DNA from: a virus
Virus record (IMG/VR): IMGVR_UViG_3300010396_001088
Location: 1 to 22,994 of that record
DNA: 22,994 nucleotides
Strand: one strand, 5' to 3'
Positions 2,881 to 15,662 of this stretch are shown in pieces (position 1 is the first letter of the stretch; the number at the start of each line of letters is the position of its first letter). The notes beneath the pieces were generated by a model. It was not told the DNA's origin and made no database searches. It worked only from the letters and a program-made list of their open reading frames with translations. Made by a program: the position numbers and the translations under genes.

Positions 2881-4257
2881 ATGGCAAACTTCCCCGACGG
2901 CAGCATCCCGGTAATCTTCAACCCGTCGATCGCTGCGACGATCCAGTCGAACACGCTGCAGCGCGTGTTCCGGGACGCGCTGTTTCCGAACCTGCTCTTC
3001 CGCATGGAGGCGATGCGCGAGCTCTGGCCGACCCACCTGGGCGGCACCTCGACGTTCACCCGCCCCGGCCTGATCAAGCCCCGCACGCGGCCCGCCGTCG
3101 CCGGCGTGGACCCGGCGGGAAAGACCTACGGCGTCGAGCAGTGGTCGGCCACCGCGCAGAAGTGGAACGACTCGATCGACACCAACATGCCGACCAGCTA
3201 CCTGCAGCTGGCCTCGGCCTTCATGCGGAACATCCACCAGCTCGGACTCCAGGCGGGCCAGTCGATGAACCGCGTGGTCCGCGACAAGGGCTACAACGCC
3301 TACGTCGCCGGCAACACGGTGACCGACGTGCTGGCCTCCAGCTCCGCCACCACGATCCACGTCGTCAACCTGACCGGGTTCACGACCAACCTGTTCGGCG
3401 GGAGCCAGCAGCCGGTCTCGAGCACGAACCCGATCAACATCACGATCCCCGGCATCAGCTACAGCGGCCAGGTGACGGCCGCCGCGCCGGACACCGCCGG
3501 CGACCCGATCCACGGCGGGACGCTGACCATCACGCCGGCCCTGGCCGTCAACGCGCCGGCCCGCTCGGCGGTCATCACCCAGAAGGCGAGCCAGATCGTC
3601 TACTCGGGCGGCGGCACCTCGGTCGACGCCATCGACAGCTCTGACACCTTCGCGGTGCGCGACGTCCGCACGGCGATCGGGATCCTCCGCTACAACAACG
3701 TCCCCGCGCACGAGGACGGCTTCTACCACTGGCACCTCGACAGCCAGTCGGAGCTCCAGGTCTTCGGGGACAACGAGTGGCAGCGCCTGAACCAGTCGCT
3801 CCCCGACTACGTGCACTACAAGCGCTTCTGCCTCGGCGTGTTCGGGCAGTCGGTGTTCTACCGGAACAACGAGGCGCCGACGGTTCAGACCTGCGACCCC
3901 GACCCCATCGACGGGAACACCCACGGGTTCGAGACGGTCAACGGCGCGAGCATCCAGCTGCGCCGGCCCATCTGCACCGGCCAGGGCTGGATCGAGGAGA
4001 AGTACCTCGACCAGAGCCAGTTCATCTCCCAGGCCGGCATCATGGGGAAGGTCGGGGACTTCGCCGTGACCAACAACGGCGTCCAGGTCATCACCGAGGA
4101 GATCCGGCTCATCATGCGGGCCCCCATCGACAAGCTCCAGGAGAACACCAGCACCACCTGGCAGGCTTGCGGCGACTGGCCGGTGCCGACCGACGAGCTC
4201 TCGCCGCCCACGACCAGCACGTTCAAGCGCGCGGTCGTGGTCGTTCACTCCGCGTAG
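2881..4257 (+). CDS. Major capsid protein (458 aa)
   Basis: The length, the position after a scaffold candidate and the composition fit a major head protein of the HK97-fold superfamily. The N-terminal 60 residues include a segment around RMEAMRELWPTHLGGTSTFT and a loop TRPGLIKPRTRPAVAG. Next comes a helix-rich region (LQLASAFMRNIHQLGLQAGQ, about 100-120), which resembles the spine helix of such proteins. Residues about 150-240 are a Thr/Ser-rich beta insertion that could be an Ig-like domain. Residues about 260-340 (YHWHLDSQSELQVFGDNEW) resemble the peripheral domain. It has its own strong promoter candidate and leader and is closed by a rho-independent terminator, as expected for the most abundant protein. 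The fold is inferred, not proven. Confidence 0.85.
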   Translation: MANFPDGSIPVIFNPSIAATIQSNTLQRVFRDALFPNLLFRMEAMRELWPTHLGGTSTFTRPGLIKPRTRPAVAGVDPAGKTYGVEQWSATAQKWNDSIDTNMPTSYLQLASAFMRNIHQLGLQAGQSMNRVVRDKGYNAYVAGNTVTDVLASSSATTIHVVNLTGFTTNLFGGSQQPVSSTNPINITIPGISYSGQVTAAAPDTAGDPIHGGTLTITPALAVNAPARSAVITQKASQIVYSGGGTSVDAIDSSDTFAVRDVRTAIGILRYNNVPAHEDGFYHWHLDSQSELQVFGDNEWQRLNQSLPDYVHYKRFCLGVFGQSVFYRNNEAPTVQTCDPDPIDGNTHGFETVNGASIQLRRPICTGQGWIEEKYLDQSQFISQAGIMGKVGDFAVTNNGVQVITEEIRLIMRAPIDKLQENTSTTWQACGDWPVPTDELSPPTTSTFKRAVVVVHSA

Positions 4258-9326: not shown

Positions 9327-9917
9327 ATGACCGTCGCTGCTCTATTCGTCGAGACCGGAGGGATCTACTTCGGCCTCCCGGACGTTGAGCCCTGGGACGA
9401 GCCGAGGGACGCGCGAACGTATAAGGGCCCATTCCCTGTGGTAGCGCATCCGCCGTGTGACCGCTGGTGCCAGATGGCTCCGGTCAATCAAGCGCGTTAT
9501 GGGCACAAGATCGGTGACGACGGCGGTTGCTTCGAGGCCGCTCTCGCTGCAGTACGTCGATGGGGGGGGGTATTGGAACATCCGGCCCACACGCTCGCGT
9601 GGCCCGCATTCTGTCTGCCGGCGCCGCTCTCACGCGGGTGGCAGCGCTGCATCGACGGGGGCTTCGTGGCGAAGGTTGAGCAGCGCCACTACGGCCACCG
9701 CGCGCGAAAGAGAACCTGGCTCTACGCCTTCGGGATCGAACCTTCGTCTCTGAAGTGGGGTCCAGGCGCCGCGCCGGAGGTGTGGATCAGCGCTGACCGC
9801 CCCCGGGCCGAGCTCGCCGCCATGGGGATCGGCCAGCTCTCGAAGCGCGAGGCCAAGGCGACGCCGACTGCATTTCGTGACCTCTTGCTCTCGATTGCCC
9901 GGAGCGCGTCCGCGTGA
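9327..9917 (+). CDS. C5-methyltransferase-like protein with PPC motif (196 aa)
   Basis: The sequence has PVVAHPPCDRWCQ (about 37-49), with a PPC motif in the context expected of the catalytic Cys loop (motif IV) of cytosine-5 methyltransferases. It also has GGVLEHPAHTLAW, which resembles the ENV motif region, and HYGHRARKRTWLYAFG, resembling motif VIII. The SAM-binding FxGxG motif I is not visible, and the protein is about half the usual length of a C5 enzyme. It may be a compact relative widespread in phages, or inactive. The start is leaderless. Its TGA overlaps the GTG of the next methyltransferase. Confidence 0.6.
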   Translation: MTVAALFVETGGIYFGLPDVEPWDEPRDARTYKGPFPVVAHPPCDRWCQMAPVNQARYGHKIGDDGGCFEAALAAVRRWGGVLEHPAHTLAWPAFCLPAPLSRGWQRCIDGGFVAKVEQRHYGHRARKRTWLYAFGIEPSSLKWGPGAAPEVWISADRPRAELAAMGIGQLSKREAKATPTAFRDLLLSIARSASA

Positions 9918-10681
9918 AGCCGTACTTCGAGCAGGGCGGGATCCGGATCTTCCACGGTGACTGCCGCGAGATGGCGGCGTCCCTCACGACCGAGAACGTC
10001 CGCTGCATCATCGCCGACCCGCCCTACGGTGAGACGTCGTTGGAGTGGGACCGGTGGCCCGAAGGGTGGCCCGGGGCTCTTGCCGCCGCGTTCCCACAGA
10101 TCGCGCTGTCCATGTGGTGCTGGGGATCGTTCCGGATGTTTCTGGAGCGCGGTGCCGAGATCGACAAGTGCTGGACGCTCGCCCAGGACATCGTCTGGGA
10201 GAAGCACAACGGGAGCGGGTTCGCGGCTGACCGGTTCAAGCGCGTTCACGAATTCGCCGTGCAGTGGTACGCCGGCGCATGGGGGGGGGTCTTCAAAGAT
10301 CCCCAGGTCACGAACGATGCCACCGAGCGGCAGGTCCGCCGCAAGCATCGGCCGCCGCACACCGGCGAGATCGGCGAGTCGGCGTACACGTCCGAGGACG
10401 GAGGGCCGCGCCTCATGCGTAGCGTCTTCCACGTCCGATCCGAGCACGGACGCGCCGTCAATCCGACCCAGAAGCCGATCGGCGTTATCGAGCCGCTGAT
10501 CCGGTACTCGGCGGCTCCCGGGTCGGTGGTGCTGGAGCCGTTCATGGGGAGTGGCACGGGGCTGGTAGTGGCGAAATCGCTGGGCCTGCGGGCCATCGGG
10601 ATAGACCTGCGCGAGGACCAATGCGAGGCGGCGGCGAACCGGTTGATCCAGGAGCTGCCGCTCGGGATGGCGACCTCGTGA
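9914..10681 (+). CDS. DNA amino-methyltransferase (N6-A or N4-C), DPPY type (255 aa)
   Basis: The catalytic motif IV DPPY is at residues 35-38. NPTQKP, a motif typical of these enzymes, lies near residue 183. The SAM-binding motif I region, EPFMGSGTG, starts at residue 208 and is followed by LGLRAIGIDL. The order catalytic motif first, SAM motif last is that of beta-class enzymes. The length is normal. It would methylate an exocyclic amino group in DNA, probably protecting phage DNA from host restriction. The target base cannot be told from sequence. The GTG overlaps the preceding gene and its TGA overlaps the GTG of the gp10-like gene. No matching restriction gene is present. Confidence 0.9.
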   Translation: MKPYFEQGGIRIFHGDCREMAASLTTENVRCIIADPPYGETSLEWDRWPEGWPGALAAAFPQIALSMWCWGSFRMFLERGAEIDKCWTLAQDIVWEKHNGSGFAADRFKRVHEFAVQWYAGAWGGVFKDPQVTNDATERQVRRKHRPPHTGEIGESAYTSEDGGPRLMRSVFHVRSEHGRAVNPTQKPIGVIEPLIRYSAAPGSVVLEPFMGSGTGLVVAKSLGLRAIGIDLREDQCEAAANRLIQELPLGMATS

Positions 10682-11202
10682 AGTTCACCTACGAGGGCTA
10701 CCACGACCAGCTGAAGAAGGACGCCAAGCTGGTGGAGGGGGCGGTCAAGGTCATCCGGGAGACGGTGAAGCTGCACGGGCCGCGCGCGGTGCAGGAGGAG
10801 ATCTCCGCCCTCGCTCGAGCGCCGGTGGACCGCGGCACCTATCGCCGCTCCTTTCGCTTCGACGACATCCCCCTCGGCGCCACGGCCTACAACTTCGCCC
10901 CCTACGCGGCGATCATCGAGGAGGGGAGGCGCCCCGGGCAGCGCCCGCCCCCCATCGGCCCCATCATCGAATGGGTCAAGCGCAAGGGGATCGGCCGCCA
11001 GTACGGGCCCAACCAGGCGGGGAAGCGGAAGGTTTCGCGCGCTCTCTCTGACCGGGAGGCCAGGGGGATCGCCTTCGTGATCGCTAGGGCCATCGGCAAG
11101 CGCGGCGTGCCGGCCCATCACATCCTCGAGGCGGCCGCGGTGGAGATCGACCGGGCGGTACGGGCGGCGATCGACGACTTCCTGGCGGGGCGAGGCGCGT
11201 AG
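10678..11202 (+). CDS. HK97 gp10-like neck / tail-completion protein (174 aa)
   Basis: I choose the GTG in the GTGA overlap at 10678, which gives an N-terminus KFTYEGYHDQL. An ATG 57 bases upstream lies inside the methyltransferase gene. The features are an N-terminal helix, then SALARAPVDRGTYRRSFRF, YNFAPYAAIIEEGRRPGQRPPPIGPIIEWVKRKG and a C-terminal GVPAHHILEAAAVEI helix. The sequence PVDxGxxRxS...YAxxxExGxRPG...P...I..WV is the typical pattern of HK97 gp10-family head-tail connection proteins. It is odd that this structural gene is translationally coupled to two methyltransferase genes. The stop codon TAG lies inside the TAGTAT box for the tRNA. Confidence 0.75.
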   Translation: MKFTYEGYHDQLKKDAKLVEGAVKVIRETVKLHGPRAVQEEISALARAPVDRGTYRRSFRFDDIPLGATAYNFAPYAAIIEEGRRPGQRPPPIGPIIEWVKRKGIGRQYGPNQAGKRKVSRALSDREARGIAFVIARAIGKRGVPAHHILEAAAVEIDRAVRAAIDDFLAGRGA

Positions 11203-11213
11203 TATCTGACGCC
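11196..11213 (+). promoter_or_regulatory. TAGTAT promoter of the tRNA-like gene
   Basis: GGCGCGTAGTATCTGACGCC ends immediately before the first base of the tRNA acceptor stem. TAGTAT (11200-11205) is 8 bases from that base, the same spacing as from TAGTAT to start codons elsewhere. The TAG is also the stop codon of the gp10-like gene. This suggests that transcription starts at or next to the mature tRNA 5' end. Confidence 0.6.
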
Positions 11214-11304
11214 GGGACCGTGGCGGAACTGGTCAGACGCTCAGGCGGGGGAGATGGCCACCTCCGACCTCTTTTTACTGCGGGTTCGAATCCCGCCGGT
11301 CCCA
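11214..11304 (+). tRNA. tRNA-like gene, Leu-type 5' half, unresolved anticodon
   Basis: GGGACCG (11214-11220) pairs perfectly with CGGTCCC (11297-11303). The T arm GCGGG-TTCGAAT-CCCGC (11280-11296) is perfect. TG and a D arm GCGGAACTGGTCAGACGC (11223-11240) match class II tRNA-Leu. The 39 bases between D and T arms do not fold into a normal 5-bp/7-nt anticodon arm. The best hairpin is AGGCGGGGG against CCTCCG-ACCT with one bulged base. One register with U33 would give GGC as anticodon, but with a mismatched stem. CCA is not encoded. It may be a degenerate, interrupted or highly unusual tRNA. Confidence 0.6.
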
Positions 11305-11307
11305 CGC

Positions 11308-11425
11308 ATGGACGTAACGATCGGGTCGCTCTTCTCCGGGATCGAGGGGCTCGGCAGGGGCGTCGAGATGGCGGTCCCCGGCGCGCGCGTCGTGTGGCAG
11401 GCAGATCGATCCGCACGCGCGCGCG
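11308..11425 (+). pseudogene. 5' part of C5-cytosine methyltransferase, split by a frameshift
   Basis: An ATG 3 bases after the tRNA opens MDVTIGSLFSGIEGLGRG, followed by PGARVVWQ. This is the SAM-binding motif I (FSGIxGL) and motif II region of C5 methyltransferases. The frame then continues as nonsense to a stop at 11482-11484. The expected continuation, IDPHARAVLERAYP, lies in another frame from about 11399. The two parts join after a net shift near CAGGCAGATCG (11398-11408). Whether this is a true mutation, a programmed frameshift or a sequencing error cannot be told here. Confidence 0.7.
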
Positions 11426-12580
11426 GTGCTGGAGCGGGCCTATCCGGCGGCGCGGCGCTACGCCGACGTGCGAGAGATCGATGAGCGAGCGGAGCGGCCG
11501 ACGATCGTTTGCGGCGGCTTCCCCTGCCAGGACATCTCGCTCGCTGGGGCCGGAGCCGGGATCGACGGTCCCAAGTCCGGCCTCTGGGCCGAGTACGCGC
11601 GCATCGTTCGCGTTCTTCGACCCGACATCGTCTTCGTGGAAAACGTCGCAGCGCTCCTTGGTCGAGGACTCGACCGCGTTCTCGGAGACCTTGCCGCGCT
11701 CGGGTTCGATGCGGAGTGGGAGACTTTTCTCGCGTCAGATGTCGGCGCGCCCCACCGTCGAGACCGACTCTTCCTGCTGGCCTACTCCGACCGCGAGCGA
11801 GTACGGCAGCTCGCAGAACGGGATCAACGGGGTGGGCGGGGAGCACGAGCGGCCGAGCGCGGGGACGCCGAGCCTGTACACGATCGCCCGCAACTGGCCG
11901 ACGCCGACGACATCGGATGCGAGCCACGGTCCGGAGCGCCGGCGCGATACGAAGAACGGGCAGAGCCTGGTGACGGCGACGCTGCGGCCGGAGTTCTTTC
12001 CGACGCCCAGCGCCAGGGACGCAAAGGGCTGCGGCGCGGAGAACCACCCGGACCACGGCGGACCGACGCTGCCGAACTTCGTGCGGGACCACTGGGCGAC
12101 CCCAACGGCGAGTTGCGCAACGGACGGGAATGCGACAAGAGGCGGCGATCGGGCGGGGGAGTTGCTCTTGACGGGGCAGGCCCGCGCGGCGGCTCAATGG
12201 CCGACCCCGTGCGCGGCGGACAGCGGACGGGCGAGCGGGACCTTCGCGCGCGGCAATCCGACGTTGACAGGGGCGGCGAAAGAGAGCTTTTGGCCGACGC
12301 CGACGCCGACGGCGCAGGACGCAGCGAGCAGCGGGGCGGCGGGCTACTCGACCGAGAGCGATCGGCACTCGGGAACGACGCTGACCGACGCCACCGTTCG
12401 CACCGGTTCCCGCCGGGCCCCGCCGCGATCGCCCGATGGGATGGTCCTCAACCCGCGATTCGTCGAGGCGATGATGGGGTTCCCGGACGGTCACACCGCC
12501 TGCGCCTACTTGGGAACGCCGTCGTCCCCCAGCAAGCGGCGCTCGCCTGGGAAACCCTGATGAGGAGAGTGCTCGCATGA
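11426..12580 (+). CDS. C5-cytosine DNA methyltransferase body (lacks motif I in frame)
   Basis: Numbered from the GTG at 11426, the frame holds catalytic GGFPCQDIS (Cys about 34), VENV (motif VI, about 71-74), SDVGAPHRRDRLFLLAYS (motif VIII, about 104-121) and LGNAVVPQQ (motif X, about 362-370). Between motifs VIII and X is a long variable target-recognition region with repeated L-(A/S/G)-D-x openings such as LADADDIG, LSDAQRQG, LGDPNGEL and LADADADG. Homologous sequence for IDPHARA continues upstream without a start, so the intact gene would begin at 11308. The enzyme would methylate cytosine in phage DNA. The ATG of the next gene overlaps its stop (ATGA). An alternative frame over the same DNA is also coding-like. 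Confidence 0.75.
   Translation: MLERAYPAARRYADVREIDERAERPTIVCGGFPCQDISLAGAGAGIDGPKSGLWAEYARIVRVLRPDIVFVENVAALLGRGLDRVLGDLAALGFDAEWETFLASDVGAPHRRDRLFLLAYSDRERVRQLAERDQRGGRGARAAERGDAEPVHDRPQLADADDIGCEPRSGAPARYEERAEPGDGDAAAGVLSDAQRQGRKGLRRGEPPGPRRTDAAELRAGPLGDPNGELRNGRECDKRRRSGGGVALDGAGPRGGSMADPVRGGQRTGERDLRARQSDVDRGGERELLADADADGAGRSEQRGGGLLDRERSALGNDADRRHRSHRFPPGPAAIARWDGPQPAIRRGDDGVPGRSHRLRLLGNAVVPQQAALAWETLMRRVLA
11481..12560 (+). CDS. Overlapping WPTP-repeat ORF (359 aa) within the methyltransferase gene
   Basis: An ATG at 11481 opens MSERSGRRSFAAASPARTS. It is followed by FDPTSSSWKTSQRSL and FSETLPRSGSMRSG, then WPTP-type repeats beginning at bases 11778, 11895, 11997 (FPTP), 12093 (WATP), 12198 and 12291, and finally LNPRFVEAMMGFPDGHT. 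From memory, these features match a phage protein group often annotated as methyltransferase-associated. The repeats are the same DNA that reads L-A-D-A-D in the methyltransferase frame. Over 11883-11999 I count G/C at 34 of 39 third codon positions here against 24 of 39 in the methyltransferase frame. It may be a genuine overprinted gene or the remnant of frame switching. Confidence 0.45.
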   Translation: MSERSGRRSFAAASPARTSRSLGPEPGSTVPSPASGPSTRASFAFFDPTSSSWKTSQRSLVEDSTAFSETLPRSGSMRSGRLFSRQMSARPTVETDSSCWPTPTASEYGSSQNGINGVGGEHERPSAGTPSLYTIARNWPTPTTSDASHGPERRRDTKNGQSLVTATLRPEFFPTPSARDAKGCGAENHPDHGGPTLPNFVRDHWATPTASCATDGNATRGGDRAGELLLTGQARAAAQWPTPCAADSGRASGTFARGNPTLTGAAKESFWPTPTPTAQDAASSGAAGYSTESDRHSGTTLTDATVRTGSRRAPPRSPDGMVLNPRFVEAMMGFPDGHTACAYLGTPSSPSKRRSPGKP

Positions 12581-13973: not shown

Positions 13974-15662
13974 ATGGCCTTCTTCCTCAGGACGACCTCG
14001 GTCCCGCCGCTCAACCAGATCTTGGCGGTCCCCCAGATCGTCGTCGTCGATCTGACCGGACCGAACATCGTCCTCGGCACTCGCCCCGGTGCGGCCTGCC
14101 TGGTGGGCGAGTTCATCGCCGGCCCGTTCTCCCCGCTGGAGGTGACCTCGGACGGCCAGTACCGGGCCATCTACACCGCCAACGGGACGATCTACCCGTA
14201 CCTCTCCCAGAACGGCGCCAGCCCGCCGGTGCAGAACGGCACGCAGGTCAACTACGAGGGGAACGGCGGCCTCCAGCTGCTCGGCAAGACCTTCCAGCGC
14301 CTGATCCTCGTTCGCGTCGACCACGAAGCGGTGACGACGGACGGCGGGACCACCAAGGGTCAGCTCTCCCTCACCGTGACGGTCAGCGCGAACGACCAGG
14401 ACGGCAGCGGCAACACCAACAAGGACCTGGTCATCCCGGCCGGGTACCGGTTCGGCAGCTCCAGCACCTTTGGCGCCTCCACCCGTGTGTTCGCCACCTC
14501 GGGGAACACCACCATCAAGCAGGGGACCGCTCTCACCAGCAACGCGGTCACGGTGGCGGTCAACTGCTTCCCGATCGTGGTGGTCGAGCCGGTCGTGGCG
14601 ACGGCCATCGCGGCGATCGCCAACGTCATTGACTCGGTGATCCCGAACGCCGACCCGACGACCACCATCACGGCGGTCAACAACGCCACGATCCTATGGC
14701 CGAACGGTACGGGGACGACACTGGCCGCGCGCATCGCCAGCAAGTACCCGGCGGCGATCTCCTCGACGCTCCCCAACGCGGACCCGCTCACCGACATCCA
14801 GATCATCTGGGCAGCTCGGCGCACCCAGGCGATCCGCCAGGCGCTGGCCGCAAACGCCAACAACGCCTCGGGGAACGGCCCCGCGCGTGTCTGCTGCGTC
14901 TCGGCCGACCCCGCGGCGGGGACCAGCGCCGGCCAGGCGGCGGCGGCCACCACGGCGGCGATCGGCTTGGCGGCGGCGGACGCCTACCCGCAGCCGGCTG
15001 ACCGCGTGATCATCTGCTTCCCGCAGCACCAGATCGTGGTGCCCGACTTCGGGAACATCGCGGTCACCATCAACCTCGACGGGATGATGGCGGTGACCCT
15101 CTCGAACTTCCCTGAGGAGGTGAACCCAGGGGCGGCCAACCAGTTCGTCCAGGCCATCACGGCGCCCGAGCAGGCGTTCGTGCTCAACCCTCTGGCGAAG
15201 CAGGACTACGCCAACCTCATCGCCGCCGGCGTCTGCGCGCTCTACTTCGACCGGCAGGCCGGCTGGCAGTTCATGCAGGGGGTGACGGCCGCCAACAGCG
15301 TGCTCTATCCGACCCGCACGCCCATCAAGCGGCGTCGGATGGCGGACCTCATTGAGGACACGCTGGCCGACATCGCGGCGCCCTACCTGAAGCAGCCGTC
15401 GACGACCGACCGGCAGGAGGCGTTCGTCCAGGAGATCGAGACCTTCCTCGACAGCCTCAAGTCGGTGAACGACCCATCGGCGCAGCGGATCGTCGACTAC
15501 CTGGTCGACGACGTGTCGGGGAACACGGCCGCCCAGCTCGCGCTGGGGATCTTCGTGGTGAAGGTCTACGTCCAGACGCTGGCGTCGATGGACTTCATCA
15601 TGTTCCTCGCCACCATCGGCGAGACGGTCACGGTCCCGACCAGCGTCGCAGCGGCGGCATAA
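13974..15662 (+). CDS. Contractile tail sheath protein (562 aa)
   Basis: The size and position just before the tube gene fit a sheath. The N-terminal part has PQIVVVDLTGPNIVLGTRPGAACLVGEFIAGP, a typical sheath opening in which the tail name is announced by GxFxxGP. A large middle insertion (about 150-330) is Thr/Asn/Ala-rich and probably surface-exposed. The C-terminal domain includes YFDRQAGWQFMQGVTAANSV, then IKRRRMADLIEDTLADIAAPYLKQP, and ends SVNDPSAQRIVDYLVDD...GIFVVKVYVQTLASMDFIMF, where the R/N-x-Q..I.DY and VYVQ strands match sheath C-terminal cores. It wraps the tube and contracts on infection. It has its own promoter candidate and leader. Confidence 0.85.
   Translation: MAFFLRTTSVPPLNQILAVPQIVVVDLTGPNIVLGTRPGAACLVGEFIAGPFSPLEVTSDGQYRAIYTANGTIYPYLSQNGASPPVQNGTQVNYEGNGGLQLLGKTFQRLILVRVDHEAVTTDGGTTKGQLSLTVTVSANDQDGSGNTNKDLVIPAGYRFGSSSTFGASTRVFATSGNTTIKQGTALTSNAVTVAVNCFPIVVVEPVVATAIAAIANVIDSVIPNADPTTTITAVNNATILWPNGTGTTLAARIASKYPAAISSTLPNADPLTDIQIIWAARRTQAIRQALAANANNASGNGPARVCCVSADPAAGTSAGQAAAATTAAIGLAAADAYPQPADRVIICFPQHQIVVPDFGNIAVTINLDGMMAVTLSNFPEEVNPGAANQFVQAITAPEQAFVLNPLAKQDYANLIAAGVCALYFDRQAGWQFMQGVTAANSVLYPTRTPIKRRRMADLIEDTLADIAAPYLKQPSTTDRQEAFVQEIETFLDSLKSVNDPSAQRIVDYLVDDVSGNTAAQLALGIFVVKVYVQTLASMDFIMFLATIGETVTVPTSVAAAA

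Follow-up and report, generated by a model that had tools for sequence, protein, structure and literature searches.

The locus studied here very probably encodes a two-subunit DNA (cytosine-5) methyltransferase of the M.EcoHK31I kind, composed of a catalytic chain, alpha, and a specificity chain, beta, that is read out of frame within the alpha gene. It lies in a complete IMG/VR virus record (IMGVR_UViG_3300010396_001088) of 22,994 bases, the whole of which was analyzed and is called the window, and at 11481-12560 two long frames of the same strand overlap, with beta in the +1 frame of alpha. This overlap is not chance. The reading builds on computed results, namely the architecture of the locus, its conservation, the frame selected in each region, the avoidance of stops in alpha, and the modularity and exchange of the beta cassettes.

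In the mechanism that we propose, alpha would supply motifs I-VIII and X, and with them SAM binding, the catalytic PC, ENV and the final helix, whereas beta, starting inside alpha, would contribute motif IX and, through a tandem row of WPTP cassettes of ~35 aa each, target recognition. The two chains could then assemble into one active enzyme, whose specificity would follow from its set of cassettes and which would methylate phage DNA, most simply as a protection against host restriction.

Organization of the locus

Alpha occupies frame 2 of the plus strand, where an ORF is open at 11318-12580, and beta occupies frame 0 of the same strand (ORF open at 11088-12560). The features of the locus are as follows.

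11308..11404, plus strand: alpha, first piece, in frame 1, with the start ATG and motif I (MDVTIGSLFSGIEGLGRGVEMAVPGARVVWQ); from translation, a PHROG_363 match, and relatives L010, L012 and L017, which read both pieces in one frame
11400..11410, plus strand: 2-nt deletion private to the window, taking alpha from frame 1 to frame 2 (GTGTGGCAGGC--AGATCGAT against GTGTGGCAGGCGGAGATCGAC in L013); from comparison with relatives
11408..12580, plus strand, stop 12578-12580: alpha, second piece, in frame 2, running from motifs IV-VIII through the LADAD read-through stretch to motif X; from translation, Pfam and PHROGs
11513..11539, plus strand: motif IV, GGFPCQDIS (catalytic PC), alpha frame
11639..11647, plus strand: motif VI, ENV, alpha frame
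11753..11773, plus strand: motif VIII, HRRDRLF, alpha frame; the first beta WPTP begins at its end
12509..12535, plus strand: motif X, LGNAVVPQQ, alpha frame
11481..12560, plus strand: beta, frame 0, proposed WPTP-cassette specificity subunit, 359 aa from the candidate ATG 11481
11778..12446, plus strand: beta cassette array, with WPTP-type motifs at 11778, 11895, 11997, 12093, 12198 and 12291
12447..12497, plus strand: motif IX of beta, LNPRFVEAMMGFPDGHT

A preliminary description of this DNA had placed two long overlapping frames at 11481-12560, and the translations of frames 2 and 0 bear this out: the methyltransferase motifs IV, VI, VIII and X that it assigned to one frame are found in frame 2, and the six WPTP-type units and LNPRFVEAMMGFPDGHT that it assigned to the other are found in frame 0, where the [WF][PA]TP motifs stand at residues 100, 139, 173, 205, 240 and 271, numbered from ATG 11481. 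It had also equated LADAD-type repeats of one frame with the WPTP repeats of the other, and LAYSD, LADAD, LSDAQ, LGDPN, MADP and LADAD of frame 2 indeed coincide with the six WPTP places. Its third-position G/C counts were reproduced (11883-11999, 34/39 in the WPTP frame against 24/39; 11399-11497, 28/33 in the methyltransferase frame), and along the locus the GC3 preference passes from frame 2 to frame 0 near 11600. The upstream methyltransferase start in frame 1 (ATG 11308, with motif I) was absent from that description.

Pfam PF00145 matches frame 2 only (residues 27-162, 2e-27), and PHROGs also assign frame 2 to C5 methyltransferases. Compared with the C5 DNA methyltransferases of PF00145, frame 2 holds motifs IV (PC), VI (ENV) and VIII together, whereas the target recognition domain (TRD) and motif IX, instead of standing between VIII and X in the same chain, are both in the +1 frame. 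Beta matched PHROG_1008 'DNA methyltransferase' (4.6e-34) as its sole confident profile match, with no match among Pfam or NCBIfam models, and PHROG_1008 was matched by 74/74 beta sequences of alignment A4.

Further genes surround the locus. A tRNA gene at 11214-11304 (Rfam RF00005; 38.3 bits, cut-off 29), which was not found by ARAGORN, lies just upstream of the alpha start at 11308. A second DNA methyltransferase, of N6/N4 type (PF01555, 1.4e-25), is found shortly upstream at 9914-10678 and is preceded by an ORF at 9327-9914 without Pfam match. Since 13974-15659 probably encodes a contractile tail sheath protein (weak PF17482 match), the methyltransferases appear to be placed among structural genes.

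Conservation of the pair

The survey of loci drew on phages, viral contigs, plasmids and bacterial genomes. All three frames were searched with four profiles, one each for the catalytic part of alpha, motif X, the start block of beta and motif IX. Relative to alpha, the beta block was in +1 at 177/183 loci and motif IX at 179/183, motif X was in the alpha frame at 174/183, and the full pair, with the +1 offset and each chain in one ORF, was present at 164 of the 183. Most of these loci had been retrieved with beta; in a second sample, chosen with alpha for this reason, 73/80 contained the complete pair. The record titles include Gammaproteobacteria, Alphaproteobacteria, Myxococcus, Chloroflexi, Actinomycetota, Opitutales, Clostridia, Spirochaetia and others, and intact pairs occurred from GC 0.44 upward. 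In Escherichia coli, the pair is intact in PT62 (L278), and a prophage pair in PCP07014 (L279, 3001-3762) is broken in both frames at one place.

This recurrence bears on whether the locus is an ordinary one-frame methyltransferase gene interrupted by sequencing or assembly frameshifts. One private indel, near 11405 in the window, is of the kind that such errors produce, but more than 200 loci that were sequenced independently, some of them within complete genomes of phages and E. coli, have the same +1 layout, so that this explanation is extremely improbable for the overlap. Only the 11405 indel may be an assembly error.

The preliminary description had offered two possibilities, a conserved overprinted gene pair or protein databases that mix two frames of one gene. 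The former is upheld: the pair is seen at more than 200 loci, and each frame shows signs of selection; among the homologues no frame was found filled with stops, and neither frame was neutral throughout. The latter is also true, as a side effect, since records annotate alpha (Acinetobacter ABMM1), beta (Rctr197k) or both (Paenibacillus, Bloom_56/57), and the label 'DNA cytosine methyltransferase' is given to the two nested ORFs alike in phages of Paenibacillus larvae; among the PHROGs, it is beta that PHROG_1008 contains.

Two other layouts were found among relatives, a split layout (L002, L003), in which motif X is attached to beta, and a fused layout with everything in one frame (L004), and in both the WPTP-plus-IX sequence occupies the usual place of the TRD and motif IX of a C5 methyltransferase. 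The end of PHROG_1008 also matches motif X in the alpha frame of the window (alpha 391-417, model 294-320), which is expected if PHROG_1008 members are of the split type.

Selection in each frame

Four-fold sites were compared in 62 independent pairs. The change at alpha four-fold sites was 0.351 and 0.435 ahead of the beta block, 0.265 over motifs VI-VIII, 0.046 in the WPTP stretch and 0.160 over motifs IX-X; for beta, the values of the same regions, in order, were 0.113, 0.121, 0.182, 0.360 and 0.236. These rates indicate that alpha is coding up to motif VI, that both frames are selected over VI-VIII and IX-X, and that beta alone is selected detectably in the WPTP stretch. The same switch of frame was seen when the window was compared with L010, L012 and L017, and alpha third-position change drops from about 11603. 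The codon-level selection that the preliminary description had proposed to examine is seen in each frame, with one refinement: in the WPTP stretch only the WPTP frame is detectably selected, and the LADAD frame is merely kept open.

That openness is maintained. When the beta protein was kept constant, shuffling of its synonymous codons gave an expectation of 403 alpha-frame stops in the WPTP stretch of 159 loci, and drawing the codons from usage gave 712; one was observed. The third frame served as a control, with 594 stops observed and 563 expected from shuffling. Most simply, alpha has to extend as far as motif X, so that it is presumably kept open through the WPTP stretch while its residues there drift, and this part of the chain would be translated only to get to motif X. 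For beta, an initial count of zero stops over VI-VIII was partly circular, because the region had been defined by a match inside an ORF. It was replaced by a count per codon at about 166 loci, still mostly found by beta, in which 46 beta-frame stops were scattered up to 11563 and one lay beyond.

These results weigh on two further explanations. According to the first, only alpha is a gene and the WPTP frame is open merely as a consequence of high GC and of the conservation of methyltransferase codons, as could be thought from alpha being the frame known to Pfam and NCBIfam and from the fact that +1 frames of GC-rich genes are often open. It predicts the opposite of the four-fold change observed in the WPTP stretch (alpha.046, beta.360); moreover, the pair is intact at GC 0.44-0.55 as well, the WPTP cassettes behave as protein units in their conservation and exchange, and the gene of the split and fused relatives normally continues into the WPTP sequence, so that we consider it highly unlikely. 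According to the second, a single polypeptide is made by ribosomes that leave the alpha frame for that of beta after motif VIII and return to it ahead of motif X. The fused one-frame relative (L004) indicates that a single chain can suffice, but two shifts would be required, and neither the beta selection over VI-VIII (alpha four-fold.265 against.35-.44) nor the avoidance of hundreds of alpha stops in the WPTP stretch would be explained, which makes this explanation an improbable one, if less so than the first. The stop-codon and substitution tests together led us to reject the spurious-ORF, frameshift-product and assembly-error readings of the overlap.

Initiation of beta

In the window, ATG 11481 is the best candidate for the beta start, with only a weak GAGAGA upstream, and in the clade of the window the first beta ATG immediately precedes motif IV. 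Across the loci, no start codon of beta is shared by all, which counts against the proposed reading. In a large clade (the last beta-frame stop stands about 200 nt ahead of motif IV in 64/160 loci), the first beta-frame ATG is found 4 nt after the alpha start (for example, at 2290-2297 of L005), so that beta may overlap nearly all of alpha there. Enrichment of Shine-Dalgarno sequences at beta-frame ATGs is modest (36% against a background of 21%). Taken together with the dual selection over VI-VIII, this enrichment favors separate initiation, and we infer that beta would be made from its own internal start rather than by frameshifting.

Cassettes and motif IX of beta

Among 237 beta sequences, the number of WPTP-like motifs ranged from 0 to 7, with nearly all having 1-5 and the window having six. 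The median spacing was 34 aa, each motif corresponded to about 35 aa more of beta (length against motif count, r 0.82), and extra WPTP motifs numbered 373 against 15.6 in shuffles. Units were shared in 1182 pairs of beta and stood at a different ordinal position in 722 of them; the window and L010, for example, share units in differing order (1-2-3-4-5-6 against 1-4-5-3-6). Units 72-96% identical were found next to alpha catalytic domains just 28-46% identical. Such similar units beside diverged alphas, at shifted positions, look like the outcome of cassette exchange between relatives.

The array is followed by LNPxWVEWLMGFPxGWT, which resembles motif IX of C5 methyltransferases. The only PDB matches of the beta profile (A4) were two plant DRM methyltransferase chains, 4onq and 4onj, at motif IX with a weak E of 1.3, and this likeness may be due to chance. 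AlphaFold models of beta alone were of low confidence, both for a compact beta (L054; pLDDT 62, pTM 0.24) and for that of the window (pLDDT 60, pTM 0.30).

The copy in this virus

Motif I is not joined to motif IV in one ORF in the window, whereas L010, L012 and L017 join them and run from motif I through motif X in one frame. The difference between L013 (CAGGCGGAGATC) and the window (CAGGCAGATC) at the same place points to a private 2-nt deletion in the window at about 11405, so that either this alpha is disrupted or the contig contains an error here. The sequence as it was assembled probably does not give a functional alpha in this virus. In the four nearest relatives (L013-L016, about 3000-3524), a deletion has brought the part of alpha that ends soon after motif I next to the beta array; motifs IV-VIII are gone, and the last cassettes, IX and X are kept.

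The architecture could therefore be real and the copy of this virus still be a decaying remnant without active enzyme. The 2-nt deletion after motif I, the loss of motifs IV-VIII shared by L013-L016 and the E. coli prophage copy, which is also broken in both frames at one place, argue for decay, but both frames are intact downstream of the deletion and a two-base assembly error would give the same picture, and we regard the matter as evenly balanced.

Relation to known methyltransferases and significance

M.EcoHK31I, with which M.EaeI is of the same kind, has a small chain that Lee, Kam and Shaw reportedly found in 1995 to be out of frame within the gene of the large chain. The pair described here likewise overlaps in +1, with both frames selected, and the likeness is one of architecture. 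In M.EcoHK31I (YGGCCR), the large chain contains motifs I-VIII and X and the small chain motif IX, and the predicted TRD was assigned to the large chain, whereas in M.AquI motifs IX and X are together in the small chain (PMC3404938). The great majority of the related loci share the former layout, with I-VIII and X in one chain and IX in another, and the window does so only with its deletion set aside. Unlike M.EcoHK31I, beta is an array of cassettes, and no restriction enzyme gene was seen in the neighborhoods listed. M.AquI resembles this locus in being a C5 methyltransferase of two polypeptides, and its joining of X with IX in the small chain recurs in L002 and L003, whereas X is in the alpha frame in the window. 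The frame selected in the TRD region here is that of beta, which suggests, at the level of sequence, that the recognition domain is in the small subunit, contrary to the prediction for M.EcoHK31I.

The recognition units of multispecific Bacillus phage methyltransferases have about 40 aa. For the C5 enzymes of SPR, phi3T, rho11 and H2, several such units in tandem are on record in references given in PMC8936443. Like these enzymes, beta has tandem units in variable number, mostly 1-7 of 35 aa and apparently exchanged; their units are in the catalytic frame and in one chain, whereas those described here are in the beta frame and in a separate predicted chain. By this analogy, each WPTP unit may set one target. 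A literature search of open-licence papers found no description of the family.

Our results raise the possibility, to which we give somewhat less than even credence, that these loci form a widespread phage and prophage class in which exchangeable specificity cassettes lie in the alternative frame of the catalytic gene, each WPTP unit would be one recognition element of a multispecific heterodimer, and the catalytic chain would translate a long stretch without detectable amino-acid selection of its own. In phages and bacteria, long genes that overlap on one strand seldom gain acceptance, and annotation usually retains one of the frames. The present loci form a large natural series that allows selection on each frame to be followed along the gene, and one of the two chains is seemingly translated through a region without amino-acid selection. 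They also extend a layout known from one or two enzymes to many phyla. Through the cassettes, it would become possible to read which targets a phage methyltransferase chooses, and to test this one unit at a time.
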